This document shows positions 4,624 to 25,001 of a stretch of 32,654 bases of DNA, piece after piece. Within the stretch, counting starts at the first letter, position 1, and each line of letters opens with the position of its first letter. This DNA comes from Megasphaera paucivorans (GTDB lineage Bacteria > Bacillota > Negativicutes > Veillonellales > Megasphaeraceae): NCBI RefSeq assembly GCF_900103535.1, contig NZ_FNHQ01000030.1, forward strand, positions 1 through 32,654. The letters are read 5' to 3'. The notes beneath the pieces were generated by a model that was not told the DNA's origin, did not search any database, and saw nothing but the letters and a program-made list of their open reading frames with translations. The position numbers and the translations under genes were made by a program.

Positions 4624-6051
4624 ATGGCATTCATGAATGATATATGCCGGGAAAAAAGCATACTATCTGATGTACAGATTCGTATATTAAATAATAGTGT
4701 AGATTTACTGCAGTTTGCCAGTGATTTATCACAGCGTGAAATTAATGTTTTTGTATTAGGTAAGCAAAAGGACACACTCGTTCTTGCAGCACAGCGCACT
4801 CCCTTATTTCTGCGATTAAGTGAAACTGTGGCAGAAGCAGCATCTGGTGAAAGCATTACGGCTTATGATGAACCTTTGGCCTTGCGGGTCTTTCATACGG
4901 GAACGCCTTTAAAGGGTGCCAAAGAACGAGAATTCGGCAAAATGGAGCCCATGATGGCGTATCCTTTTGTTGATAATGCCGGAGATACGATCGCTGTCAT
5001 TACCTTTGTTGGGAAAGTCGAAAATAATCGCAATATACTTACTGATACAGCGTTTCAAGCATTACAAGTGCCTATTATAGATGAATCACGCAAGCTATAT
5101 CAGACCTTATCCGTGCAAGATGGCATTATCCTTATCAGTGGGGAGGGAAAAGTTGTATATGCGGATGAAATGGCTGAAAGCATTATGCATCTTCGCGGTC
5201 GGGACATACGACTGGCAGGTGAAAATATTTATAACAGCCGTGTAAATTTATCCGGAGCGAAAAAAGCGTTAGCAACGCATGAAGGGTTTGTCGAGGATAT
5301 ACGTCATGGGAAGATTATTTTTACACAAAGAGTAATCCCGCTCCTCAGCGGAGGAAAAGTATCCCGGATTATTATTGTTATTACGGAACGGACAGAAATT
5401 CACCGCAAGGAAGAAGAATTGATGGTTAAGACATCGGTTATTAAGGAAATTCATCACCGTGTCAAGAATAATCTTCAAACGATAGCCAGTCTTTTGCGTA
5501 TGCAGATGCGCCGGGTAGAGAGTCAGGAAGCCAAAGATGTATTACAGGAAAGCTTGCATCGTATTTTGAGCATTTCTCTGGTGCATGAAATATTATCGCA
5601 TCATGATGAAGAAAATATTGATATTTCAGATGTAGCACAAAAATTGTTGACCTTGCTTTTACATAGCATGGTAAGCCGCGAAAATCGTATTGAGGCTAAA
5701 TTTGAAGGACAGAAACTAATTTTGCCTTCAGAGGCAGCGACTTCATTAGCATTAGTGATTAATGAGTTAATTACTAATGCTATCGAACATGGATTTGAGG
5801 GAATTCATGAAGGAACGATAAGCGTAACCATTCATAATGAAGGAACATGGGGAATGATGGTAATAGCTGATAATGGAAGAGGTATGGATATAGAGGCGGT
5901 CCGAAATTATAAAGGACGTAAGCACTTGGGTTTACAGATTGTATCTACACTGGTAGAAAAGGATCTGCAGGGAACGTTGAAATTTTCTTTAGCAGAACCA
6001 CAAGGAACGAAAGCCATTATTCGATTTCCGTTGCATACGAAGGGGGAATAA
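4624..6051 (+). CDS. Sensor histidine kinase, HisKA_2 type (PdtaS/EutW-like)
   Basis: Partner kinase of the ANTAR response regulator that follows. About 475 aa with no evident membrane segment, so a soluble sensor. Order seen: an N-terminal GAF-like region resembling the PdtaS/EutW input domain (about 1-150), a PAS-like segment (about 160-255), and the HisKA_2 phosphoacceptor motif EIHHRVKNNLQ with the histidines near residue 277. The HATPase domain follows, with NELITNAIEHGF, DNGRGMD and GLQIV. I start at ATG 4624 because AGAGGTGA is ideally spaced before it. GTG 4615 is an alternative. The signal sensed is unknown. EutW senses ethanolamine and PdtaS nitric oxide/copper, but neither can be transferred to this protein. 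Confidence 0.9.
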   Translation: MAFMNDICREKSILSDVQIRILNNSVDLLQFASDLSQREINVFVLGKQKDTLVLAAQRTPLFLRLSETVAEAASGESITAYDEPLALRVFHTGTPLKGAKEREFGKMEPMMAYPFVDNAGDTIAVITFVGKVENNRNILTDTAFQALQVPIIDESRKLYQTLSVQDGIILISGEGKVVYADEMAESIMHLRGRDIRLAGENIYNSRVNLSGAKKALATHEGFVEDIRHGKIIFTQRVIPLLSGGKVSRIIIVITERTEIHRKEEELMVKTSVIKEIHHRVKNNLQTIASLLRMQMRRVESQEAKDVLQESLHRILSISLVHEILSHHDEENIDISDVAQKLLTLLLHSMVSRENRIEAKFEGQKLILPSEAATSLALVINELITNAIEHGFEGIHEGTISVTIHNEGTWGMMVIADNGRGMDIEAVRNYKGRKHLGLQIVSTLVEKDLQGTLKFSLAEPQGTKAIIRFPLHTKGE

Positions 6052-13304: not shown

Positions 13305-13691
13305 ATGTCAGTTAAAGTTATTAGTACCGAAAAAGCTCCAGGTGCCGTTGGCCCTTATTCTCAAGCTATCAAAGCCGGTGATTTTCTTTTTGCATCCGGA
13401 CAGATTCCTTTGAATCCGGAAAATGGTAAAATTGTAGGCGGTGGTGTTGCTGAACAGACAGAACAGTCTTTGAAAAATGTGGGAGCTATTTTGGCAGCTG
13501 AAGGCTTAACCTATGATGATGTTGTGAAGACGACCGTTTATATTACCAACATGAATTTCTTTGGTACTGTCAATGCTGTGTATGGAAAATATTTCCAGAA
13601 GACACTGCCGGCACGTTCTTGCGTAGAAATTTCCAAGCTTCCTAAAGATGCATTGGTTGAAGTAGAAGTTATTGCATATTGCGGTAAATAA
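13305..13691 (+). CDS. ridA: RidA family 2-iminobutanoate/2-iminopropanoate deaminase
   Basis: 128-aa trimeric enzyme that hydrolyses the reactive enamine/imine released by PLP dehydratases, protecting other PLP enzymes. The catalytic arginine is R104 in LPARSCVEIS. The GPYSQAI motif (16-22) and the FASGQIPLNPE segment are intact, as is the closing VEVEVIAYCGK. AAGGAGATG precedes the ATG, and the gene is 29 nt after the regulator, so they may share a transcript. Its place beside a threonine ammonia-lyase matches the known biochemistry (compare TdcF next to TdcB). Confidence 0.95.
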   Translation: MSVKVISTEKAPGAVGPYSQAIKAGDFLFASGQIPLNPENGKIVGGGVAEQTEQSLKNVGAILAAEGLTYDDVVKTTVYITNMNFFGTVNAVYGKYFQKTLPARSCVEISKLPKDALVEVEVIAYCGK

Positions 13692-13751
13692 AAAAGTAAT
13701 ACATTCTGTTTTTTTGTATACTGCTTGCGAATTTCGTATAAATGCAAATAA

Positions 13752-13801
13752 AAAATCACTGCTAGGTGTTGCAGATGCAACTCTTAGCAGTGATTTTTTT
13801 T
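13752..13801 (+). terminator. ridA terminator, long hairpin containing the asr operator
   Basis: AAAATCACTGCTA (13752-13764) pairs with TAGCAGTGATTTT (13785-13797) and continues into the inner palindrome TGTTGCA-GA-TGCAAC, giving a nearly continuous stem of about 20 bp, then a T-run to 13801. The A-run before the stem would allow function in both directions. The inner palindrome is the proposed regulator site for asrA. Confidence 0.88.
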
Positions 13802-13809
13802 GCTATCAT
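13767..13809 (+). promoter_or_regulatory. Proposed asrABC promoter with Crp/Fnr-type operator
   Basis: The palindrome TGTTGCA-GA-TGCAACT (13767-13782) is followed after 18 nt by TGCTATCAT (13801-13809), an extended -10. The palindrome centre (13774.5) is 32 bp from the -10 centre, which puts it near -41.5, the class II activator position. No -35 consensus is present. The same layout occurs upstream of the siroheme operon at 24959-25001. Predicted start is near 13816, with a 56-nt leader. The assignment is inferred from sequence. Confidence 0.72.
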
Positions 13810-13871
13810 AGTGACAGAATCACGTATGTGTTTATATGTTATATTTTTCACTTGAGAAAAGAGGAAGAAAA

Positions 13872-14894
13872 ATGGGCTATCAATTACGCACAGAATCATT
13901 GCGCAAGGTTTTTGATGCATGGAGTAAAGAGTATGATATCTATGCTCCGAAGATATTTGAAGGTACGGGACGTTTTTCTGAAACCGATGTAATCCGTTAT
14001 GGGATAGTTTCATCTCCAGAAGAAATTGTATGGGATCAACGTTCGGAATATTCTTTTAAAGAAATAGTAGTACCCATTTGTCAGACCTTGTTTTATTTTA
14101 CGGAGACACAAATCAAAGAAGCAGATTTTCCACAAAAAAAGGCCATTATTTTTTTGCGCAGCTGTGATTTACATGCGGTGAAACGCTTGGATTATATGTT
14201 TCGCGATAACGGACCGGCAGATTATTATTATGAAAAACTTCGTGAAAATGTAAAGTTTGTACTTATCGGTTGTGAGAAAAGCTTTGATGATTGCTTTTGT
14301 GTTTCCATGGGAACGAATAAAAGCAATGTATATGATGCGGCGGTGAATGTCAAGAATGAAACGTATTTCTTTGACTGTAAGGAGAAGTATTTGCAGGAAG
14401 CGTTACAGAAATTTGCGGTCAGTGAGATTCCCGTTGCCGTAGAGTATGTAACAAGAAATAAGGTGACAGTACATATTCCGGAAGAACTTGATTCAGGAGC
14501 GGCGGCAAGCACGATATGGGATGAATATGATAAACGTTGTATTACATGCGGACGGTGCACGATCGTTTGTCCTACTTGCACTTGTTGGTCAATGCAGGAT
14601 TTGTTTTATTCAGAAAATGGGAAAGCCGGAGAACGTCGGCGTGTCCAAGCGTCTTGTATGATTGATGGATATACAGAGGTAGCGGGCGGCGGATGTTTTC
14701 GTCAAAAAAGCGGACAACGCATGCGTTTTAAAGTACTTCATAAAGTTCTTGATTTCAAGAAACGCGCAGGGTTTCAAATGTGTGTCGGCTGTGGACGCTG
14801 TGATGCTATATGCCCGGAATACATTTCATTTTCTCATTGTGTAAATAAACTGGGTGATGCTATGCGGGAGGTAAAAGAAAATGGCAAAAAATGA
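13872..14894 (+). CDS. asrA: Anaerobic sulfite reductase subunit A (AsrA)
   Basis: 340-aa iron-sulfur electron-transfer subunit of the NADH-dependent siroheme sulfite reductase (sulfite to sulfide). The C-terminal third has two ferredoxin-type cysteine clusters, CITCGRCTIVCPTC and CVGCGRCDAICPEY, as known for AsrA. The large N-terminal part is the family-specific domain. I start at ATG 13872, which follows AGAGGAAG; a TTG-type start 12 codons upstream would run into the promoter leader. It overlaps asrB by 14 nt. First gene of asrABC-FNT, behind the proposed Crp/Fnr-regulated promoter. Confidence 0.94.
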   Translation: MGYQLRTESLRKVFDAWSKEYDIYAPKIFEGTGRFSETDVIRYGIVSSPEEIVWDQRSEYSFKEIVVPICQTLFYFTETQIKEADFPQKKAIIFLRSCDLHAVKRLDYMFRDNGPADYYYEKLRENVKFVLIGCEKSFDDCFCVSMGTNKSNVYDAAVNVKNETYFFDCKEKYLQEALQKFAVSEIPVAVEYVTRNKVTVHIPEELDSGAAASTIWDEYDKRCITCGRCTIVCPTCTCWSMQDLFYSENGKAGERRRVQASCMIDGYTEVAGGGCFRQKSGQRMRFKVLHKVLDFKKRAGFQMCVGCGRCDAICPEYISFSHCVNKLGDAMREVKENGKK

Positions 14895-15690
14895 ATATTT
14901 ACCGTTTCGTTCTACTATATTGAAAGTTATACGACATTCCGAAAAAGAATATACATTTCGCATGGCGTATGATAAAGCAAATGAATTTCCTGTGAAACCG
15001 GGACAATTTTTTGAAATTTCTATTCCGAAATATGGAGAAGCACCTATTTCAGTTAGTGGGATCACCCATCATTCTTTGGATTTTACAATTCGTCGTGTCG
15101 GGTCCCTTACAGATGAAATTTTTGAAAACTATGAAGGTGGGTCCTTTTTTATGCGGGGACCATACGGGAATGGTTTTGATGTAACTATGTTTAAAGATAA
15201 AGACATTGTTTTGGTAGCGGGTGGCTCAGGACTCTCTCCGGTGCATGGTGTTATTGATTATTTTGCCGATCATATGGAAGAATGCCGGAGTCTGACTGTT
15301 ATTGCAGGATTCAAATCTATCGAAGATATACTGTTTCGTGCCGATATTGTCCGGTGGAAGGAAGATGGAATCTGTATTATTGATACAGTGGATGCAGCTC
15401 CGGAAGGATATACGGGACGTACGGGGATGGTTACTAAGTATATATCAGCATTACAGTTTAAAAATATGGCGCATGTGATAGCCGTTGTTGTAGGTCCGCC
15501 GCCTATGATTAAATGGTCTATCAAAGGGTTGAAGGATATTGGTGTGGATGAAGAGGATATCTGGTTATCTGAATCACGGAAAATGTGCTGTGGTCTTGGA
15601 AAATGCGGTCATTGCCGTATTGGTGATATATATGTTTGCCAGGACGGTCCCGTTTTTAAATATACTAAATTGCGTACATTGATCGATTAA
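14881..15690 (+). CDS. asrB: Anaerobic sulfite reductase subunit B (AsrB)
   Basis: 269-aa flavin and NAD(H)-binding subunit, related to the dihydroorotate dehydrogenase electron-transfer subunit. Seen: RGPYGNGF in the flavin-binding domain, GGSGLSPVHG for the nucleotide-binding domain, and a C-terminal 2Fe-2S site C237-X4-C242-X2-C245-X7-C253. It passes electrons from NADH to AsrA and then AsrC. The start ATG lies within the last codons of asrA, so translation is coupled. Confidence 0.95.
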   Translation: MAKNEYLPFRSTILKVIRHSEKEYTFRMAYDKANEFPVKPGQFFEISIPKYGEAPISVSGITHHSLDFTIRRVGSLTDEIFENYEGGSFFMRGPYGNGFDVTMFKDKDIVLVAGGSGLSPVHGVIDYFADHMEECRSLTVIAGFKSIEDILFRADIVRWKEDGICIIDTVDAAPEGYTGRTGMVTKYISALQFKNMAHVIAVVVGPPPMIKWSIKGLKDIGVDEEDIWLSESRKMCCGLGKCGHCRIGDIYVCQDGPVFKYTKLRTLID

Positions 15691-15705: not shown

Positions 15706-16680
15706 ATGGATATGAATTGTGGCAATTTGAAAAAAAATGCCTTTCGTGTGACAAAACAGCGTGGAATTACCGCCTCCCGCGTACGTATTCCGGGAGGACA
15801 TATGAATGCTGCCATTTTAGGACAAATCCAGCATATTGCAGAAACCTATGGCAGTGGAGAGGTGCATGTGACGTTGCGGCAAGGTTTTGAAATCCTGGGG
15901 ATTCCTTTTGAAAAGATCAAGGAAGTTAATAAGGCCCTGCAGCCGATCATTGAAGAGCTGCATATCAATCAAGGAATTGCCGATACTGGATATAGTTCTT
16001 CCGGGACTCGCAATGTTATGGCTTGTATCGGCAATCGGGTATGTCCCTTTGCCAATTATGATACGACGGCATTGGCACAGCGTATTGAAAAAGCGATTTT
16101 TCCAAATGACTTGCATTTTAAAATAGCACTCACGGGATGTCCGAATGATTGCGGTAAAGTTCGTATGCATGATTTTGGGATTATTGGCATGACGGAACCG
16201 CAATTTGATCCGAATCGCTGCATCAGCTGCGGAGCCTGTGTAAAGAAATGTGAGCAGTTATCCGTCAAAGCGCTGCGGATGGAAAAATTCAGGCCGATTC
16301 GCAATACAGATCGCTGCATTGGCTGTGGAGTCTGTGTTCATGCTTGCCCTAATCGCGCATGGACGCGCAGTAAAATAAGGTATTTCCGGTTAACACTGTT
16401 AGGTCGTTCTGGGAAAAAGAATCCACGGATGGGAATCGATTTTATTAAATGGGTAGATGCGGATAGTATAGTCAAAATCATTACTAATACCTATGCCTAT
16501 GCAGCGCAGTATATTGACCCGCAGGCACCGGGTGGTAAAGAACATATTGGGTATATTGTAGATCGTACAGGTACAGCCGAATTTCTTAAATGGGCAATGA
16601 AAGATGTACATCTGCCGGATAAGGCCGAAGTGTATTCACCATTATATTGGAACGGCATTCGATATAGTGGTTTAAAATAA
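15706..16680 (+). CDS. asrC: Anaerobic sulfite reductase subunit C (AsrC), siroheme catalytic subunit
   Basis: 324 aa. Carries the siroheme/4Fe-4S signature of sulfite and nitrite reductases, C107-X5-C113 and C145-X3-C149, and two further 4Fe-4S ferredoxin clusters (C172/C175/C178/C182 and C204/C207/C210/C214). It reduces sulfite to sulfide at the siroheme. AGGAGG lies ahead of the ATG, 15 nt after asrB. The gene depends on siroheme, whose synthesis operon lies on the opposite strand from 18283 to 24919. Confidence 0.96.
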   Translation: MDMNCGNLKKNAFRVTKQRGITASRVRIPGGHMNAAILGQIQHIAETYGSGEVHVTLRQGFEILGIPFEKIKEVNKALQPIIEELHINQGIADTGYSSSGTRNVMACIGNRVCPFANYDTTALAQRIEKAIFPNDLHFKIALTGCPNDCGKVRMHDFGIIGMTEPQFDPNRCISCGACVKKCEQLSVKALRMEKFRPIRNTDRCIGCGVCVHACPNRAWTRSKIRYFRLTLLGRSGKKNPRMGIDFIKWVDADSIVKIITNTYAYAAQYIDPQAPGGKEHIGYIVDRTGTAEFLKWAMKDVHLPDKAEVYSPLYWNGIRYSGLK

Positions 16681-16693
16681 GGAGGATATACCT

Positions 16694-17464
16694 ATGTTTT
16701 CAGATGAATATAATGCTTCTGCTATAGCAGCAAAGGCAAAAATTACTATGTTGGAAAATAATCCGGCAGGCTATTTTGCAGCGTCTGTTTTAGCAGGTGC
16801 CTATATCGGTTTTGGTATTTTGCTTATCTTTACGATTGGCAGTATGCTGGGCAATCAGCCGTATACCAAAATTATCATGGGAGCCTCCTTTGGCATTGCC
16901 TTGAGTTTGGTCGTTATTGCCGGAGCGGAATTGTTTACAGGAAATAATTTTATTATGGCCAGCGGTGTTGTAAAGAAAACCATTCGTGTTATGGATGTGA
17001 TCAAGCTTTGGTGTATCTGCTATGCAGGAAACTGGGTCGGTGCGGTGCTCTTGTCCTTGGCTTTTTATGGAGCACAAGGGCCTTCCGGCAGTACAGGACA
17101 ATATATAGCTGCCAGTGCAGCTGCAAAAATGGGGTTATCGCCGCTAGTCCTATTTCTTAGAGGCGTACTATGTAATATACTTGTGTGTCTTGCTGCATGG
17201 TGCGGCTTCCGGTGCAAGTCAGACAGTGGAAAATTAATTATGATCTTTTGGTGTTTATTTGCATTCATAACTTGTGGATTTGAACATAGCATAGCCAATA
17301 TGACATTACTCACCGTTTCTTTATTAGCGCCTTTTAATGCGGCAGTAAGTGTATGGGGATACATATACAATCTAACTTTTGTGACATTGGGAAATATTGT
17401 CGGTGCTGTTATTTTTCTGGCGGTACCTTATGGAATGATGACAAGAGAAACAAAAATAAAGTAA
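16694..17464 (+). CDS. FNT-family channel, probable hydrosulfide channel
   Basis: 256-aa formate/nitrite transporter family membrane protein with about six hydrophobic helices and the family's conserved ELFTGNNF and NWVGA segments. The FNT family contains formate, nitrite and hydrosulfide channels. A hydrosulfide channel was described from the asr operon of Clostridium difficile. The position directly after asrC (13-nt gap, own GGAGG) supports a channel for HS- made by AsrABC. Nitrite or formate transport cannot be excluded by sequence alone. Confidence 0.88.
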   Translation: MFSDEYNASAIAAKAKITMLENNPAGYFAASVLAGAYIGFGILLIFTIGSMLGNQPYTKIIMGASFGIALSLVVIAGAELFTGNNFIMASGVVKKTIRVMDVIKLWCICYAGNWVGAVLLSLAFYGAQGPSGSTGQYIAASAAAKMGLSPLVLFLRGVLCNILVCLAAWCGFRCKSDSGKLIMIFWCLFAFITCGFEHSIANMTLLTVSLLAPFNAAVSVWGYIYNLTFVTLGNIVGAVIFLAVPYGMMTRETKIK

Positions 17465-17536: not shown

Positions 17537-17612
17537 TTACGTTGCTGTAATATAAAAAAAATCTGGGTGTTTATAATAAGCACCCAGATTTTTTTACGTT
17601 ACAGCAACGTAA
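17537..17612. terminator. Nested inverted repeat, bidirectional terminator between asr and hem operons
   Basis: The inner hairpin (arms 17555-17569 and 17581-17595, containing ATCTGGGTG/CACCCAGAT) has T-runs in both directions, suited to two convergent operons. An outer pair of perfect 14-bp arms, TTACGTTGCTGTAA (17537-17550) and TTACAGCAACGTAA (17599-17612), encloses it. The right outer arm is also the last four codons, with stop, of the Crp/Fnr-type gene. Confidence 0.85.
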
Positions 17613-18270
17613 AGGTATTATGGTCAAAATCAATAAGTCCATCCTTTTTCATACGTGCTAGTTCACGAGCCAGTGCAGTCCGGTTGGCACAAACATAATC
17701 GGCAAGTTCTGTACGATTTAAGGAAAGAGAAAAATTGGAATTTTTTGAACGCTGTGACTGAAAAGAAAGGAAGGTGAGAATTTTTTTGCGCAGCGTTTTT
17801 TTTGAGGTGACTTGTAGTTTTTTCATGAGTTGAGCATTTTTGTCGGCCAGCATAGTTACCATATTCTCAATGAGCTGCTGATGAAAAGGACAAGCTTGAC
17901 TGCAAGAATGAAGAACCTTATGAAACGGGAGAATCATAGCTTTTGTGTTTTCGGCGGCCATAAAGGAAACACAGGAAGTCAAGTCAGTGCCGCAGGCAAA
18001 GGTTTCACCAAAAAGTTCACCTTTTCTGATGACGGCGAGGATTGATGTATCATTCCAAGTATCCTCATGGATCATGTGAATCGTACCGCTTAGGACGATA
18101 CCTACATAGTTAATTTCTTCTTGGGATAAAGCTATAAAATCGTTTCGTTTATATAGTTTTGTCCTGCCGCCTAAGCATTGCAGCATAGGTGCCAGTTCTC
18201 CCATTTTTATACCAGAAAAAAGAGATAAATCAGAATATTTTTCAGAACCATCATTACAAGGAGCCATCAT
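17599..18270 (-). CDS. Crp/Fnr-family transcriptional regulator
   Basis: About 223 aa. N-terminal cyclic-nucleotide-binding-like beta roll (about 20-130, with YVGIVLSGTIHMIHE and IRKGELFGE), long dimer helix, and C-terminal winged helix (SLNRTELADYVCANRTALARELARMKKDGLI). Several cysteines, including HSCSQACPF (C-X3-C) and one in the HTH, could hold an Fe-S or other redox sensor. The Fnr N-terminal four-cysteine motif is absent. Two ATGs (18270, 18267) share the ribosome site ATGAGGTG; GTG 18276 is less likely. It starts 12 nt after hemL, so it belongs to the siroheme operon, and it converges on asr. I infer that it binds the shared palindromes upstream of asrA and sirC and activates both operons. 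The inducing signal is unknown. Confidence 0.9.
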   Translation of the reverse strand: MMAPCNDGSEKYSDLSLFSGIKMGELAPMLQCLGGRTKLYKRNDFIALSQEEINYVGIVLSGTIHMIHEDTWNDTSILAVIRKGELFGETFACGTDLTSCVSFMAAENTKAMILPFHKVLHSCSQACPFHQQLIENMVTMLADKNAQLMKKLQVTSKKTLRKKILTFLSFQSQRSKNSNFSLSLNRTELADYVCANRTALARELARMKKDGLIDFDHNTFTLL

Positions 18271-18282
18271 ATACACCTCATT

Positions 18283-19578
18283 TCATTGAGCCGCTTTTTG
18301 GAAGGCTGTTCGAGACGCCTCAATCGTAGTATGAATATCAATATCTGTATGGGTACCCGATACAAAACACGTTTCAAATTGGGAAGGAGGTAAATAAATA
18401 CCTTGTGCAAGCATAGCTAAAAAATATTTGCAGAACATCGTTTGATCGGCAGCCGCTGCTCCTTCATAGTCAATCACGGCATTTTTGCTGAAAAATATAC
18501 TGAACATAGTACCTGCTTGATGAGCACATAGAGATATCCCGGCAGCGGCTGCTGCTGTTTTCAAGCCATCGACGAGCAAGGTGGTCAATGCTGTTGTTTT
18601 AGGAATGTAGCAAGGATCCTCCGTAATAATTTTCAGTGTTTCCAATCCAGCCGTCATAGCCAGCGGATTTCCGCTTAACGTACCGGCTTGATAGACGGGG
18701 CCTTCAGGAGATACACAATGCATAATATCGGCTCGTCCGCCATATGCAGCAACGGGAAGGCCGCCGCCGATAATTTTGCCGAGGCAGGTCATATCGGGTA
18801 AAATATGATACATGTCTTGGGCTCCTCGTAAATTGCAGCGAAAACCACACATGACTTCATCAAAAATAAGAACCGTGCCATATGTTTTCGTTACCTCACG
18901 CAAGGTTTGAAGAAATCCTTCCTGCGGGAGAATAAGACCCATATTTCCGGCAATCGGTTCGACAATAACGGCGGCAACAGAATTTCCCAGCGTACGCATT
19001 GTTTTTTGAAACGTGGGGATGTCATTGTAGGGAAGGGCAATGGTATCAGCCGCTGTCCCCGGTGTGATGCCGGGACTGTCGGGACAGCCGAAAGTAGCCA
19101 GTCCCGATCCGGCTTTTACCAGAAGACTGTCACCATGTCCGTGATAACAGCCGATAAATTTAATGATTTTATTGCGGCCGGTGAAGCCGCGGGCAACGCG
19201 GAGAGCACTCATGGTAGCTTCCGTACCGGAATTGACCATGCGGATTTTTTCTATAGAAGGGTATAAATATCGTACCATTTCTGCTAGATCGGATTCAATG
19301 GTTGTGGGAGCACCATAACTAGTTCCCCGTTCAACGGCATCGTGCAGTGCTTTTACTACACGCGGATGAGCATGGCCGGCAATCATAGGTCCCCAGGAAC
19401 CGACGTAATCAATATAGGCGTTGCCGTCAATATCATATATGTGACTTCCTTTGGCATATGCAATAAAAGGTGGTGTGCAATGTACACGGGCATACGAACG
19501 AACAGGACTGTTAACGCCGCCCGGCATCAGTGTTTTTGCTTTATTAAAAGCAGTCGTTGATTTTTCTAAATGCAACAT
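18283..19578 (-). CDS. hemL: Glutamate-1-semialdehyde 2,1-aminomutase HemL
   Basis: PLP/PMP enzyme making 5-aminolevulinate from glutamate-1-semialdehyde, the second step of the C5 pathway. 431 aa, normal length. Visible: NSGTEATMSALRVAR (117-131), FIGCYHGHGD (141-150), DEVMCGFR (240-247) and the PLP lysine K268 in LGKIIGGGLP. GGAGCGAG precedes the ATG. It follows hemB by 21 nt on the same strand and precedes the Crp/Fnr-type gene by 12 nt. Confidence 0.97.
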   Translation of the reverse strand: MLHLEKSTTAFNKAKTLMPGGVNSPVRSYARVHCTPPFIAYAKGSHIYDIDGNAYIDYVGSWGPMIAGHAHPRVVKALHDAVERGTSYGAPTTIESDLAEMVRYLYPSIEKIRMVNSGTEATMSALRVARGFTGRNKIIKFIGCYHGHGDSLLVKAGSGLATFGCPDSPGITPGTAADTIALPYNDIPTFQKTMRTLGNSVAAVIVEPIAGNMGLILPQEGFLQTLREVTKTYGTVLIFDEVMCGFRCNLRGAQDMYHILPDMTCLGKIIGGGLPVAAYGGRADIMHCVSPEGPVYQAGTLSGNPLAMTAGLETLKIITEDPCYIPKTTALTTLLVDGLKTAAAAAGISLCAHQAGTMFSIFFSKNAVIDYEGAAAADQTMFCKYFLAMLAQGIYLPPSQFETCFVSGTHTDIDIHTTIEASRTAFQKAAQ

Positions 19579-19599
19579 GGGATACTCGCTCCTTTTTTG

Positions 19600-20574
19600 T
19601 TATTTCTGCAGCCATCGGGCAGCATCTATAGCGTGATATGTAATGATAATGTCGGCACCGGCTCGTTTCATGGAAGTCAAACTCTCCAATACGATCTGCC
19701 TTTCGTCAATCCAGCCATTTAGTGCAGCGGCTTTGACCATAGCATATTCCCCGCTGACATTATATACGGCGATAGGCCGATCAATGCGGTCTCGGGCCTG
19801 GCGAACAATATCCAAGTAGGTCATGGCAGGTTTGATCATAATAATATCAGCGCCTTCCTCCATATCAAGATCAATTTCCTTCATGGCTTCTCGTGAATTA
19901 GCCGGGTCCATTTGGTATTGCCGGCGATCACCGAATTGAGGGGCAGAATCAGCTGCATCGCGGAAAGGTCCATAATAAGCTGAAGCATATTTTACAGCGT
20001 AGGACATAATGGAGATATTTTGAAATCCATTGCGGTCCAAGGCACTGCGTATAGCTGCAATACGGCCATCCATCATATCGGAGGGAGCAATGATATCCGC
20101 ACCGCTTTTTGCTTGACTGATAGCAATTTTGGAGAGAAGTTCAATAGTAGCGTCATTATCTACGTAATGATTGCAGAGTTTGCCGCAATGTCCATGTGAG
20201 GTATATTGACAGAGGCAGACGTCACCGACAATAATAAGATTGGGTACGTTTTTTTTCACAGCCATCATGGCTTGCTGTACCGGACTTGTCATATCCCAGG
20301 CACTGGATCCGACATCATCTTTATAGGTGGGTAATCCGAAAATTTCTACAGCAGGTATTCCCAAATCATAAATTTCCCGGGCCAGTTTGACTGCTTGGTC
20401 AACAGATAGATGATAGCAGCCGGGCATGCTGGGGATTTCTTCTTTTATACAATTGCCGGAAACGACAAAAATAGGATAAATAAGGTCATGGACCGTCAAT
20501 GTGTTTTCACAGACCATATTGCGGATAGGGGCAGATAGGCGTAGACGACGAGGACGTAATGTATTAAACTTCAT
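19600..20574 (-). CDS. hemB: Porphobilinogen synthase HemB
   Basis: Condenses two 5-aminolevulinates to porphobilinogen. 324 aa. It is the zinc-dependent type: C120, C122 and C130 in DVCLCQYTSHGHCG. The two substrate lysines are K195 (VKYASAYYGPF) and K248 (IKPAMTYLD). Its first 11 nt overlap the end of the cobA-hemD fusion gene, so translation is coupled. Confidence 0.97.
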   Translation of the reverse strand: MKFNTLRPRRLRLSAPIRNMVCENTLTVHDLIYPIFVVSGNCIKEEIPSMPGCYHLSVDQAVKLAREIYDLGIPAVEIFGLPTYKDDVGSSAWDMTSPVQQAMMAVKKNVPNLIIVGDVCLCQYTSHGHCGKLCNHYVDNDATIELLSKIAISQAKSGADIIAPSDMMDGRIAAIRSALDRNGFQNISIMSYAVKYASAYYGPFRDAADSAPQFGDRRQYQMDPANSREAMKEIDLDMEEGADIIMIKPAMTYLDIVRQARDRIDRPIAVYNVSGEYAMVKAAALNGWIDERQIVLESLTSMKRAGADIIITYHAIDAARWLQK

Positions 20575-22090
20575 GTGTAACCCACTTCCATTCTTTGATT
20601 TTTTTTGCGAGTCCGTCCATCGTATATGTATCTGCTGTAATAATCGGAGCTAGACCGTATGCCCTGCAGGTGGAGGCTGTGATAGGACCGATGCAGGCCA
20701 GTGTTATATCAGAAAGAAGACTTTTTTGTTCACCGAGCAGCAATATCAGGTTTTCAACCGTAGAAGAGCTTGTAAAAGTAATCATAGTGACTGTTTTTGA
20801 TTGTAAAAGGGCAATAAGTTTGCTTTTGTTTTCTACGGCAGCTGTTGTGCGATAAGCTTCAGCAACGTCAACGACAGCAGCTATTTTCGAAAGCTGTTCC
20901 GGCAAATAAGGACGAGCATCCCGGGCTCTGGGAATCAGTATGCGGCAGTCTTTTTTTATGTGTGGTCTCATGACCTCCACCAGTTCCTCGGCACAATAAC
21001 GGCCAGGTATAATATCCGCAGTAATACCATATTGGGATAAGGCTGTTTTTGTAGCAGCCCCGATAACGGCAAATTTAGCATGTCCTAAAGCACGGCTGTC
21101 CCGGTGCTGTTTTTTTAGCTGGGTAAAAAAGGCATGAACCCCGTTGATACTGGTGAAAACGATCCAATCATAACTGTCAATATGACAGATAGCCGTTTGC
21201 AAAGAGGCATACGCATCTGCCGGCTCCATAATTTGGATCGTCGGAAGTTCAATACAGCGGGCTCCTTGATCTTCTAACAAGTCTGTTAAATCCGAAGCGG
21301 GAACAGAAGTACGCGTAATGAGAATTGTTTCACCAAAAAGCGGTTTATTTTCAAACCAGGAAATTTGTTTGTTGAAATTGACGACAGAACCGACAAGAAA
21401 GATTGCCGGTGGTTTTAAATCATAGCGTTTAGCAGTGCAGGACGCATTTTCCAATGTTGTAATAAGTGTTTTCTGTTCTGCCTTTGTGCCCCAGCGAATC
21501 AGTGCGGCGGGGGTTTCGGGTGCTCTTCCGTTGGCAATAAGTTTTTCTGTAATGTAAGATAAATTTTTTACACCCATTAGAAATATAAGCGTATCCACAG
21601 CGGTCGATAACTTTTCCCAGCGAATAGATGACGTCGTTTTGTCAGGCGATTCATGTCCGGTAACGACAGCAAAGGATGAGGCCGTACCACGTTCTGTTAC
21701 AGGAATACCTGCATAAGCCGGCACCGCAATGGCAGAAGTAATGCCGGGGACTATTTCAAACAGAATATGTGCGGCAGAAAGAGAGTGTGCTTCTTCTCCA
21801 CCCCGGCCAAAAACAAAAGGATCACCGCCTTTTAGACGGACGACAGTTTTATTTTCTTTGGCTTTGCGGATGAGAAGTGAATTTATTTCTTCTTGCGTTA
21901 GTGTATGTTGTTGTGCTTTTTTTCCTGCGTATATGAATTCAGCTTCAGCCGGAGCAAATTTCAAGAGGCGGGAATCTGCCAAATGATCATAAATAACAAC
22001 TTCGGCGCGAGATAATACTTCTTTGCCGCGCAGGGTAAGCAGTTTATAGTTACCGGGACCTGCTCCGACGAGATATACAATACCTGCCAT
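20564..22090 (-). CDS. Fused uroporphyrinogen-III C-methyltransferase / uroporphyrinogen-III synthase
   Basis: 508 aa, two enzymes in one chain. Residues about 1-245 are the SAM-dependent methyltransferase CobA/SUMT (VYLVGAGPGN at the start, KGGDPFVFGRGGEE near 85, GIPVTERGTASSF), which makes precorrin-2. Residues about 255-508 are the HemD domain (ILITRTSVPASDLTDLL, DWIVFTSINGVHAFF, TFTSSSTVENLI), which makes uroporphyrinogen III. ATG 22090 follows GGAGGAAT; a start 11 codons upstream lacks such a site. The fusion channels the pathway towards siroheme/cobamide rather than protoheme. It lies 4 nt after hemC. Confidence 0.95.
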   Translation of the reverse strand: MAGIVYLVGAGPGNYKLLTLRGKEVLSRAEVVIYDHLADSRLLKFAPAEAEFIYAGKKAQQHTLTQEEINSLLIRKAKENKTVVRLKGGDPFVFGRGGEEAHSLSAAHILFEIVPGITSAIAVPAYAGIPVTERGTASSFAVVTGHESPDKTTSSIRWEKLSTAVDTLIFLMGVKNLSYITEKLIANGRAPETPAALIRWGTKAEQKTLITTLENASCTAKRYDLKPPAIFLVGSVVNFNKQISWFENKPLFGETILITRTSVPASDLTDLLEDQGARCIELPTIQIMEPADAYASLQTAICHIDSYDWIVFTSINGVHAFFTQLKKQHRDSRALGHAKFAVIGAATKTALSQYGITADIIPGRYCAEELVEVMRPHIKKDCRILIPRARDARPYLPEQLSKIAAVVDVAEAYRTTAAVENKSKLIALLQSKTVTMITFTSSSTVENLILLLGEQKSLLSDITLACIGPITASTCRAYGLAPIITADTYTMDGLAKKIKEWKWVTHEV

Positions 22091-22094
22091 GAGA

Positions 22095-23033
22095 CTATTC
22101 CTCCTTATTTTCTGTAAGTACATGCAATTGCTGCAGTATGCTTTTTCCGCCTTCTGCCAGCAATTTTTCTGCTAAAAAGTGGCCTAAAGCGACAGCTTCT
22201 TGCTGAGGAGCCGTTTCACTGCAGCGATATGCGATTTTTCCATCGGGGGAAGCAATAACGGCTTTCAACGTTATCACGGCGTCGTTTATACAACCGTATA
22301 CACCGACAGGAATCTGGCAATTTCCTCCTATATGAGAAAGAAACGCACGTTCTGCTGTTACAGCCGCAACCGTAGGTGCATCATTTAAGGCGGCAATCAA
22401 GGAAAGAACAGCCGTATCTCCGGCTCTCGTTTCAATTGCCAGTGCGCCTTGTCCGACGGCGGGCAGGCATAAGCTCATAGGAAGTTTCTGCGTGATGCGG
22501 GTTTCTTTTCCCAATCGCTGTAAACCGGAAATAGCTAAGACGATAGCGTCATAATTTCCTTCATCAAGTTTATGCAGCCGTGTATCTACGTTGCCGCGCA
22601 AGCTGCATATAGTTAAATCGGGACGATAATGCAGCAACTGTGCAGTACGACGCAGACTGGACGTACCGATGCGAGCTCCGGCTGGAAGTTTATCCAAGGT
22701 GCCGTACCGAGGGGATATCAAAGCATCTCCCGGTTCGGCGCGTTTCATAACAGCACCGAGGACGAGTCCCGGCGGCAATATAGCCGGAACATCCTTTAGG
22801 CTGTGTACGGCAAGGTCTATGCGGCCGGATAGTATTTCGGCTTCCAGTTCTTCTGTAAATAAGCCTTTGCCGCCGATTTTAGTCAGTGGTACATCCAGAA
22901 TTTTATCTCCTTTAGTAAGGATAGGTTTTATTTGTGTAGATATATGAGGAAATTTTTTTTTCAAGGCATGTGCGGCAAAGGCTGTCTGCCATTGGGCAAG
23001 TTTACTGTTCCTCGTTCCGATAATCAAGTTCAT
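22095..23033 (-). CDS. hemC: Hydroxymethylbilane synthase HemC
   Basis: Polymerises four porphobilinogens to hydroxymethylbilane. 312 aa. Cofactor-binding C239 lies in HIGGNCQIPVG. IGTRNSKLA opens the chain, and FTEELEAEIL, DLAVHSLKDVP and RIGTSSLRR are all intact. The first 32 nt overlap the end of hemA. Confidence 0.97.
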   Translation of the reverse strand: MNLIIGTRNSKLAQWQTAFAAHALKKKFPHISTQIKPILTKGDKILDVPLTKIGGKGLFTEELEAEILSGRIDLAVHSLKDVPAILPPGLVLGAVMKRAEPGDALISPRYGTLDKLPAGARIGTSSLRRTAQLLHYRPDLTICSLRGNVDTRLHKLDEGNYDAIVLAISGLQRLGKETRITQKLPMSLCLPAVGQGALAIETRAGDTAVLSLIAALNDAPTVAAVTAERAFLSHIGGNCQIPVGVYGCINDAVITLKAVIASPDGKIAYRCSETAPQQEAVALGHFLAEKLLAEGGKSILQQLHVLTENKEE

Positions 23034-24312
23034 GGAAGCTATTCTCCTTTGCTATATCAAGCTTAAATAAATCAGCCATAGCTCCGGTTATGTGTTTTTC
23101 TTCCGGGGTTTCGGCGGCTTGTGCGGCACAAATCATAGGATCACGCAGCAGCTTGCGTACGATCATGCGGGACATATGATCCAATATGCGGTATTGGTGT
23201 TCCTCTAATTCAGGAAGTTTTGTAATACTGCGCTTTAATTCATGACGTCGGATTCGATCTGCTTTTTCGGCCAGCCGTACCATAACCGGACGAACCGAAA
23301 GATACCGGAACCGTTCTAATAAAGAATCCGCATCCTCACGGACAATAAGAGCAGCAGCAGCAGCTTCTTGGCGGCGCAGTTTTTCATTGTTTTGTACAGC
23401 GGACTCCAGCATATCTATATTATACAGTGTTACGTTCTGCATGGAGCCTACTTTGGGATCTACATCCCGCGGGACGGCAATATCAATAAAAACGAGTGGC
23501 CGGCCATTGCGGATAGTAAGAAATTGATGGACTCGCTGCGGATATATGACATAATGGGGAGCCCCTGTAGAAGTAATGACAATATCAATCTTGTCGGCGA
23601 CAGATTCCACATTTCGAAAGTGTACGGCTATACCTTCAATCTTGTCGGCCAGCTTGCGTGCCCGGTCCATATGACGATTGACAACGTAAATTTGATTAAC
23701 TTTTTTGCCGCGGAAATTGCGCGCTGTTAATTCGGCCATTTGGCCGGCACCATATAGTAAAATGTTTTTATGTTCCACGCTGCCAAAGACTTGTTCAGCT
23801 AATTGTACGGCAGCGTAGCTGACAGAGACAGCATTATAAGCAATATGTGTATCTGTACGTACGCGTTTTCCTGTGGCAATAGCTTGATGAAAAAGTACAT
23901 TTAAAATGGCACCGGTGGCATCACATGTATGGGCAAGTGTGTATGCTTGTTTTACCTGGCTGAGAATCTGACCTTCGCCAAGTACCAATGAATCCAGACT
24001 GGAAGCTACTCGGAGAAGATGAAAAATACAATCGCTGCCGGTATAATAATAAAAATAGTTTAGATTGTATTCTTTTGTATGAGTCAGATGGGAAAAAAAT
24101 TCGTGCAGTACTTGATTGTTTTTCTTTTCATCATTTACAACGGCATATATTTCAGAGCGATTACAGGTAGATAATACAACAACTTCATCGATACCACTGT
24201 AATCATCAAGCTGCAGGAGTTGATTGGAAATATCTTGAGGGGATACGGTAAAACGCTCTCTGATTTCAACAGGTGCGGTTTTATGATTGAGACCTAAAAC
24301 TACTAATTGCAT
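23002..24312 (-). CDS. hemA: Glutamyl-tRNA reductase HemA
   Basis: NADPH-dependent reduction of glutamyl-tRNA(Glu) to glutamate-1-semialdehyde, the committed step. 436 aa from ATG 24312. Nucleophile C50 in LSTCNRSEIY, GEGQILSQVKQAY near 110-125, and a Rossmann LYGAGQMAE near 183. I reject a start 9 codons upstream because the family begins at MxLVVLGLNHKTAPVEIRE and GGAGGAAC lies before ATG 24312. It overlaps sirC by 32 nt. Confidence 0.96.
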   Translation of the reverse strand: MQLVVLGLNHKTAPVEIRERFTVSPQDISNQLLQLDDYSGIDEVVVLSTCNRSEIYAVVNDEKKNNQVLHEFFSHLTHTKEYNLNYFYYYTGSDCIFHLLRVASSLDSLVLGEGQILSQVKQAYTLAHTCDATGAILNVLFHQAIATGKRVRTDTHIAYNAVSVSYAAVQLAEQVFGSVEHKNILLYGAGQMAELTARNFRGKKVNQIYVVNRHMDRARKLADKIEGIAVHFRNVESVADKIDIVITSTGAPHYVIYPQRVHQFLTIRNGRPLVFIDIAVPRDVDPKVGSMQNVTLYNIDMLESAVQNNEKLRRQEAAAAALIVREDADSLLERFRYLSVRPVMVRLAEKADRIRRHELKRSITKLPELEEHQYRILDHMSRMIVRKLLRDPMICAAQAAETPEEKHITGAMADLFKLDIAKENSFHELDYRNEEQ

Positions 24313-24919
24313 GACGTATTTGTTCCTCCGCTTCTTCAATTTTTTCTTGACGCACTAGTTCCATGACCTCATCCGTCAGTGCATGCTGCCAAAAGTTCTG
24401 GCGGTCTCGGCTGGAGAGGAAGGTTTGCTGTACTTCTTTTCTAAGAAGAGACAAACGAGTTAGCCAATGTCCATATACAGGCCCGTATTCCTTGGTCAGA
24501 GCGATACGCAGCCAGCGGGCTAACGCGGGAGAAGCGCCGTTAGTAGAAATGGTAATGGTTAATTCTCCCTGTCTGACAACGGCAGGAAGAGTAAACGTGC
24601 AGAGAGCAGGGGTGTCGCAGACATTGACGAGTATATGCTGACGCTGTGCTTCTTCAGCAGCAAGCTGGTTAGCAGTCATATCGTCGGTTGCACAAATTAG
24701 CAGTGTAAATCCCTTTTCATCGCCGATTTCATATTTTTTCCTGCGCCAGTGAAGAGCACCTTCTGTAATCAGTTGTTCTATATCCTTTGTCACGTCCGGA
24801 GCAATGATCGTTACATCAGCAGATGCTGCAAGAAGTGACTGAATCTTCTGCAGGGCGATACTGCCGCCGCCAAGGACAGCACAAGGCACATTATCCAATC
24901 GCATATTGATAGGATACAT
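24281..24919 (-). CDS. Precorrin-2 dehydrogenase (SirC/Met8 type)
   Basis: 212 aa. Oxidises precorrin-2 to sirohydrochlorin with NAD+. In Met8/CysG homologues the same fold also inserts iron. The NAD-binding loop reads VLGGGSIALQKI near residue 15. The central VNVCDTPALCTFTLPAVVRQGELTI region and STNGASPALARWLR follow, as in CysG-B/SirC. It is the first gene of sirC-hemA-hemC-cobA/hemD-hemB-hemL-crp, preceded by AAGAGGTGAT. No hemE/hemN/hemH-like gene is nearby, so the operon points to siroheme (and cobamide) rather than protoheme. Confidence 0.93.
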   Translation of the reverse strand: MYPINMRLDNVPCAVLGGGSIALQKIQSLLAASADVTIIAPDVTKDIEQLITEGALHWRRKKYEIGDEKGFTLLICATDDMTANQLAAEEAQRQHILVNVCDTPALCTFTLPAVVRQGELTITISTNGASPALARWLRIALTKEYGPVYGHWLTRLSLLRKEVQQTFLSSRDRQNFWQHALTDEVMELVRQEKIEEAEEQIRHAISSFRSQS

Positions 24920-24958: not shown

Positions 24959-25001
24959 ATTGTAACAGAGGCAAATGCACCTATATGTTGCAAGTGCAAC
25001 A
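24959..25001 (-). promoter_or_regulatory. Proposed siroheme-operon promoter with Crp/Fnr-type operator
   Basis: The perfect 16-bp inverted repeat TGTTGCA-N2-TGCAACA spans 24986-25001. On the minus strand, 18 nt further on, TGTTACAAT (24967-24959) is an extended -10. The centre-to-centre distance is 32 bp, identical to the asr promoter. Predicted start is near 24952 and sirC begins at 24919. A second possible -10 (TATAAT, 24957-24952) would place the site at -48.5, a less standard position. Confidence 0.72.

Follow-up and report, generated by a model that had tools for sequence, protein, structure and literature searches.

Organization of the ridA-asr Region

The window analyzed here is a 32,654-nucleotide stretch of DNA from Megasphaera paucivorans. 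On the plus strand, ridA of the Rid family (13305–13691; TIGR00004 and PF01042) is followed by asrA for subunit A of anaerobic sulfite reductase (13872–14894; TIGR02910, 492 bits with a cut-off of 323), asrB (14881–15690; TIGR02911 over the cut-off), and asrC for sulfite reductase subunit C (15706–16680; TIGR02912 over the cut-off). A transporter of the formate/nitrite family (16694–17464, plus strand; PF01226) lies downstream in the asr operon. The hem/siroheme operon occupies 18283–24919 on the minus strand and continues into crp, in the order sirC-hemA-hemC-cobA/hemD-hemB-hemL-crp. This last gene (17599–18276, minus strand) encodes a Crp/Fnr-family regulator in which a cNMP-binding-type domain and a Crp HTH were identified by matches over the cut-off to PF00027 and PF13545. 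The transporter and crp genes are convergent and are separated by a terminator at 17537–17612, the outer arms of which (TTACGTTGCTGTAA and TTACAGCAACGTAA) include the crp stop codon.

The ridA gene is followed by a terminator-like hairpin at 13750–13801 (plus strand), which was scored as a terminator embedding an operator. Residues 13750–13773 are paired with 13776–13799 to give a palindrome of approximately 50 bases of DNA, in which 13767/13782 is a T-T mismatch and 13765/13784 is a G-T wobble. The start of the hairpin, previously placed at 13752, is corrected here to 13750. A run of eight T residues is found at 13794–13801. RNA folding of positions 13740–13810 provided a free energy of −34.4 kcal/mol and a z-score of −9.35, and none of 200 shuffled sequences folded as well. 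A p value of 0.0005 was obtained for the outer stem when the flanks were shuffled and the operator was held fixed. With its stable stem and directly adjoining T-run, the segment 13750–13801 is a strong predicted intrinsic (Rho-independent) terminator hairpin. No terminator was detected by an automated terminator scan, probably since limited stems and loops are counted by that program, and folding was used in its place for the hairpin calls.

Predicted Operator and Promoter of the asr Operon

The apex of the hairpin is the palindrome GTTGCAGATGCAAC at 13768–13781, a predicted class II Crp/Fnr-type operator of asr that lies wholly within 13750–13799. The original prediction had placed the asr operator in the inner part of the ridA terminator stem and the T-run between the operator and the −10 element, and both placements agree with the positions determined here. 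The −10 element, TATCAT, is at 13804–13809 (plus strand), 22 bp past the end of the operator. The center of the operator is at −41.5 relative to a probable start site near 13816. The distance from the operator end to the −10 element is 22 bp in all 14 promoters listed (eight asr, two hem, three flavodoxin, and one flavodiiron). A palindrome near −41.5 with a conserved spacing to the −10 element is thus found at asr, and the constant 22-bp spacing is the signature expected of a class II Crp/Fnr activator site.

The exact sequence GTTGCA-NN-TGCAAC occurs twice in the 2.9-Mb genome, for which 0.17 occurrences are expected. The first copy is the asr operator. The second, at 24987–25000, precedes the hem/siroheme operon on the minus strand and is centered at −41.5 as judged from the −10 element TACAAT (24959–24964, minus strand), which is 22 bp from the operator and is the same in the relative G016. 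The hem copy is not part of a terminator hairpin for the hem direction. The operator and spacing common to asr and hem suggest that siroheme supply and sulfite reductase are controlled together. Three further matches to the shorter pattern GTTGC-N4-GCAAC in this genome (C59, C45, and C31; 2.8 expected) were taken as chance occurrences. Match C59 lies inside a frame that resembles pyruvate:ferredoxin oxidoreductase by eye, and matches C45 and C31 overlap long open reading frames.

Separation of the Two Proposed Roles within the Megasphaeraceae

The asrA gene is present in 8 of the 17 Megasphaeraceae genomes. In all eight, the GTTGC-N4-GCAAC core is kept before asrA with the 22-bp spacing to the −10 element. 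The outer stem of the hairpin is shared by the M. paucivorans genome and G016, is quite different in G004, and is different again in G002 and G006, where the whole terminator consists of the operator plus an A/T extension. In G007, G010, and G011 the operator is present and the outer stem is absent; in G010 and G011 a separate predicted terminator is located farther upstream of the asr operator. Since the outer stems are unrelated or absent while the core is kept, the operator is conserved independently of the terminator, and the terminator appears to have been rebuilt around it. It also follows from G007, G010, and G011 that the fused terminator is not needed for asr control.

The comparison proposed with the original prediction, namely whether the inner palindrome is kept while the outer stem drifts, therefore gave a positive outcome, and the family data support the assignment of one hairpin as both predicted ridA terminator and putative asr operator. 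A relative in which the loop differs completely while asr control is retained was not found among these genomes: the 4-base loop varies, and the 10 core bases are constant. The suggestion that the T-T mismatch reflects selection on the palindrome was not borne out, the mismatched position being outside the conserved 10-base core and different among relatives.

These data bear directly on whether the hairpin is just a terminator that resembles an operator by virtue of being palindromic. Palindromic patterns are enriched in terminators, and at two sites in relatives (L063:3050 and L065:2011) GTTGC-N4-GCAAC occurs in terminator-like hairpins with no evident promoter. The occurrence of the core at the same −10 spacing in the three hairpin-less relatives already contradicts such a reading. 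The core is also found without hairpins at hem, flavodoxin, and flavodiiron promoters, and it occurs at hcp promoters as well. A role as terminator alone is thus extremely unlikely. The element is very probably a fused terminator-operator, in which the palindrome would be bound by an activator as DNA and the same palindrome would end the ridA transcript as RNA.

Perfect copies of GTTGCAAATGCAAC (gene strand) are found 22 bp before a −10 element at L058:2002, L062:1194, L068:2044, and L067:1950. Each of these sites, from other members of the Megasphaeraceae, precedes a flavodoxin or flavodiiron-type gene.

The original prediction also held that a bound regulator could hinder read-through from ridA, or that transcription from ridA could displace the activator. 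By the geometry of the site, a polymerase arriving from ridA must cross the bound operator, and the fusion recurs in other genomes. Both observations would be compatible with a bound regulator that blocks the polymerase and so sharpens termination of ridA, or with displacement of the activator by upstream transcription, but relatives that keep the operator dispense with the fusion. Such physical coupling is doubtful and is presented here as speculation.

Recurrence of the Fusion outside the Family

Fused asr promoters are also found in Blautia caecimuris and related Lachnospiraceae, in Eubacterium barkeri, and in E. aggregans. In Blautia a Crp/Fnr gene is immediately followed by the GTTGC core with its enclosing outer stem of 19 bp, and the U-run is broken. 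In Sporomusa-type genomes (GTDB family f29 and its neighbors, the genus name being inferred), as well as in G391 and G375, the fusion at asr is built on a different operator, CGTGA-N6-TCACG or TGTGA-N6-TCACA. A weaker fusion is found at L112, and the long stem at L087 has hardly any U-run. The outer stems outside the family exceed those of flank shuffles (p from 0.0005 to 0.034) except for E. aggregans, whose stem contains a bulge that is missed by the ungapped score and is revealed by folding. Many other genomes have an equally spaced operator that is unfused, and several of them carry a separate terminator upstream. Several bacterial groups thus show the fusion with sequences that are unrelated, and, as judged from these genomes, it is a genetic economy that has arisen more than once. 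L091 and L093 have hairpins of the GGTGA...TCACC type in which no convincing operator was seen; these were regarded as plain terminators and left out.

In the Sporomusa-type genomes the Crp/Fnr gene ends with ...FKLP* or similar, and its TGA stop codon falls within the operator before asr, so that about 25 bases serve as stop codon, predicted terminator, and operator together. In G391 the regulator gene ends with ...YFKSCD*, and the TAA is inside the operator. Loci at which the Crp/Fnr stop codon is placed within the asr palindrome in this way include L076–L084 and L128. A functional switch can be envisaged, in which the Crp/Fnr dimer alters termination of the upstream transcript (its own mRNA in Blautia and the Sporomusa-type genomes) or binds the hairpin as RNA, and one palindrome would couple regulator synthesis, read-through, and asr activation. 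This scheme is improbable. In E. barkeri a truncated Crp/Fnr remnant (the HTH part) is found between clpB and asr (L109, about 5600–5880); in E. aggregans this remnant is lost, and the hairpin directly follows clpB.

Compensatory changes are observed in the outer stems. Among seven distinct Sporomusa-type sequences the GTGA/TCAC pairs of the operator are invariant, and the outer pair 9/34 appears as G-C, A-U, C-G, or G-U. The two Eubacterium species differ in an outer pair, which changes from C-G to T-A. The Sporomusa-type covariation is above that of slid versions and moderately above that of shuffles, 25 of 500 of which reach the score, with one pair changed on both sides. This covariation is modest and is regarded as supporting rather than decisive; it was not used alone.

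The element could also be an operator alone, with a long stem that is incidental or that serves the DNA structure as a cruciform, through A-tract bending, or with the A-tract as an UP element. The RNA polymerase alpha subunit can contact upstream DNA in class II CRP promoters, and the A-tract at about −66 to −61 is within its possible reach. The long stem of L087, with almost no U-run, would also fit. Against this, most of the fused stems are followed by T-runs, those checked lie after co-directional genes, and at several unfused promoters the predicted terminator is a separate element. The operator-only reading is quite unlikely. Thirty hcp loci were compared in the order to which E. barkeri belongs. 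About half have a palindrome of the GTTGC, GTAAC, or a similar type at class II spacing, and none of these palindromes is followed by a terminator T-run, although the orientation of the upstream gene was uncontrolled in this set. Such operators are thus not terminators by default.

Candidate Regulator and Proposed Mechanism

The Crp/Fnr gene at 17599–18276 adjoins asr. One of the two exact operator copies stands before asr and the other before hem; hcp itself was not located in this genome. A homologue with at least 55% identity to the encoded protein is found in exactly the eight family genomes that have asrA, and both are absent from the other nine. In those nine genomes a paralogue with about 31–38% identity is the sole relative of this protein. 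The 17599–18276 protein is the probable regulator of asr and hem.

The 10 aligned asr-type Crp/Fnr regulators share four conserved Cys residues (MLxC, FxC, HxCxxxC) that are mostly missing in the paralogue; these residues suggest a candidate metal or Fe-S sensor. The recognition helix reads R-T-A-L/V-A-R in Megasphaeraceae and R-S-A-L-T-R in Blautia, both of which have GTTGC operators. It reads R-E-T-V-S-R or R-E-T-T-S-R in the Sporomusa-type genomes and G391, which have GTGA operators. These pairings of helix and operator fit the residue 180/181 rule (PMC1274295).

The paralogue adjoins a ferredoxin-like gene, looks HcpR-like, and might itself bind the asr operator in place of the protein from the hem operon. 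In Acidaminococcus the asr site is present, and an HcpR-like protein is the one such regulator found. GTTGC operators also precede hcp in other Clostridia, including the order of E. barkeri, so that either protein could be the one that binds. Nevertheless, every one of the 17 family genomes encodes the HcpR-like paralogue, whereas the distribution of the hem/asr-linked protein matches that of asr (in 8 of 8 genomes with the operon and 0 of 9 lacking it), and a related Crp/Fnr gene is located directly before asrA in Blautia. Binding by the paralogue is considered rather unlikely.

For the fused terminator-operator, the following mechanism is proposed from sequence comparison. A dimeric Crp/Fnr-family activator, most likely the 17599–18276 product, would bind GTTGC-N4-GCAAC as DNA at −41.5 and activate asrABC in the class II manner. 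This protein is probably the activator of the hem/siroheme operon as well, since AsrC should need siroheme. As RNA, the palindrome would cap a longer stem, and the ridA transcript would end at the U-run behind that stem; this terminator would shield asr from unregulated read-through. The outer arms and T-run may have been added within the spacer between the operator and the −10 element. Such fusions probably arise repeatedly, since the operator palindrome is already a hairpin core to which just outer arms and a T-run have to be added.

Comparison with Known Systems

The asr promoter resembles the class II promoters of CRP and FNR in having a palindrome at −41.5, a good −10 element, and no clear −35 element. 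It differs in that the site is inside the predicted intrinsic terminator of the preceding gene. In Neisseria and Haemophilus, DNA-uptake-sequence terminators are known in which an inverted-repeat DNA motif doubles as a terminator stem. The uptake sequence is read by the uptake machinery and not, as proposed for the asr element, by the transcription activator of the next operon.

The HcpR and HcpR2 regulons are controlled by Crp/Fnr regulators of anaerobes with 5-N4-5 operators, that of HcpR2 being GTAAC-N4-GTTAC (PMC1274295). GTTGC-N4-GCAAC was found at hcp promoters in this analysis, but the targets here are asr and hem, the candidate regulator has four conserved Cys residues, and the hcp promoters are unfused. 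At the HcpR-SnoA-hcp locus of Bacteroides thetaiotaomicron, the 3′ hairpin of an RNA falls on an HcpR recognition site (preprint, PMC13370916). That RNA is antisense to the hcp promoter and a ternary complex is proposed, whereas the asr hairpin would end a co-directional mRNA. The DNA role proposed for the asr element is covered by the known class II Crp/Fnr promoters and HcpR regulons, and the fusion with a terminator would be the new part. A literature search, for which subscription journals were mostly outside the scope, provided no published case in which a Crp/Fnr operator and the terminator of the gene before it are fused.

These results indicate that an activator site and a terminator, usually annotated separately, can be one sequence, and that this arrangement arises repeatedly. 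Terminator predictors will hide such operators, and motif finders may mask such terminators. Since closely related genomes offer both fused and unfused forms at one and the same gene, it can be tested directly whether termination and activation are coupled.

Gene Content around asr in Other Megasphaera

A sulfate-assimilation-like gene set is located directly upstream of asr in other Megasphaera (L056, 4196–13676; L063, 3483–13071). It includes a PALP enzyme, an ABC transporter, a PAPS-reductase-domain protein, and an EF-Tu-type GTPase. Downstream of its asr operon, G007 has another asrC-like fragment, which is partial, and one more transporter gene (L055:8819–10745).
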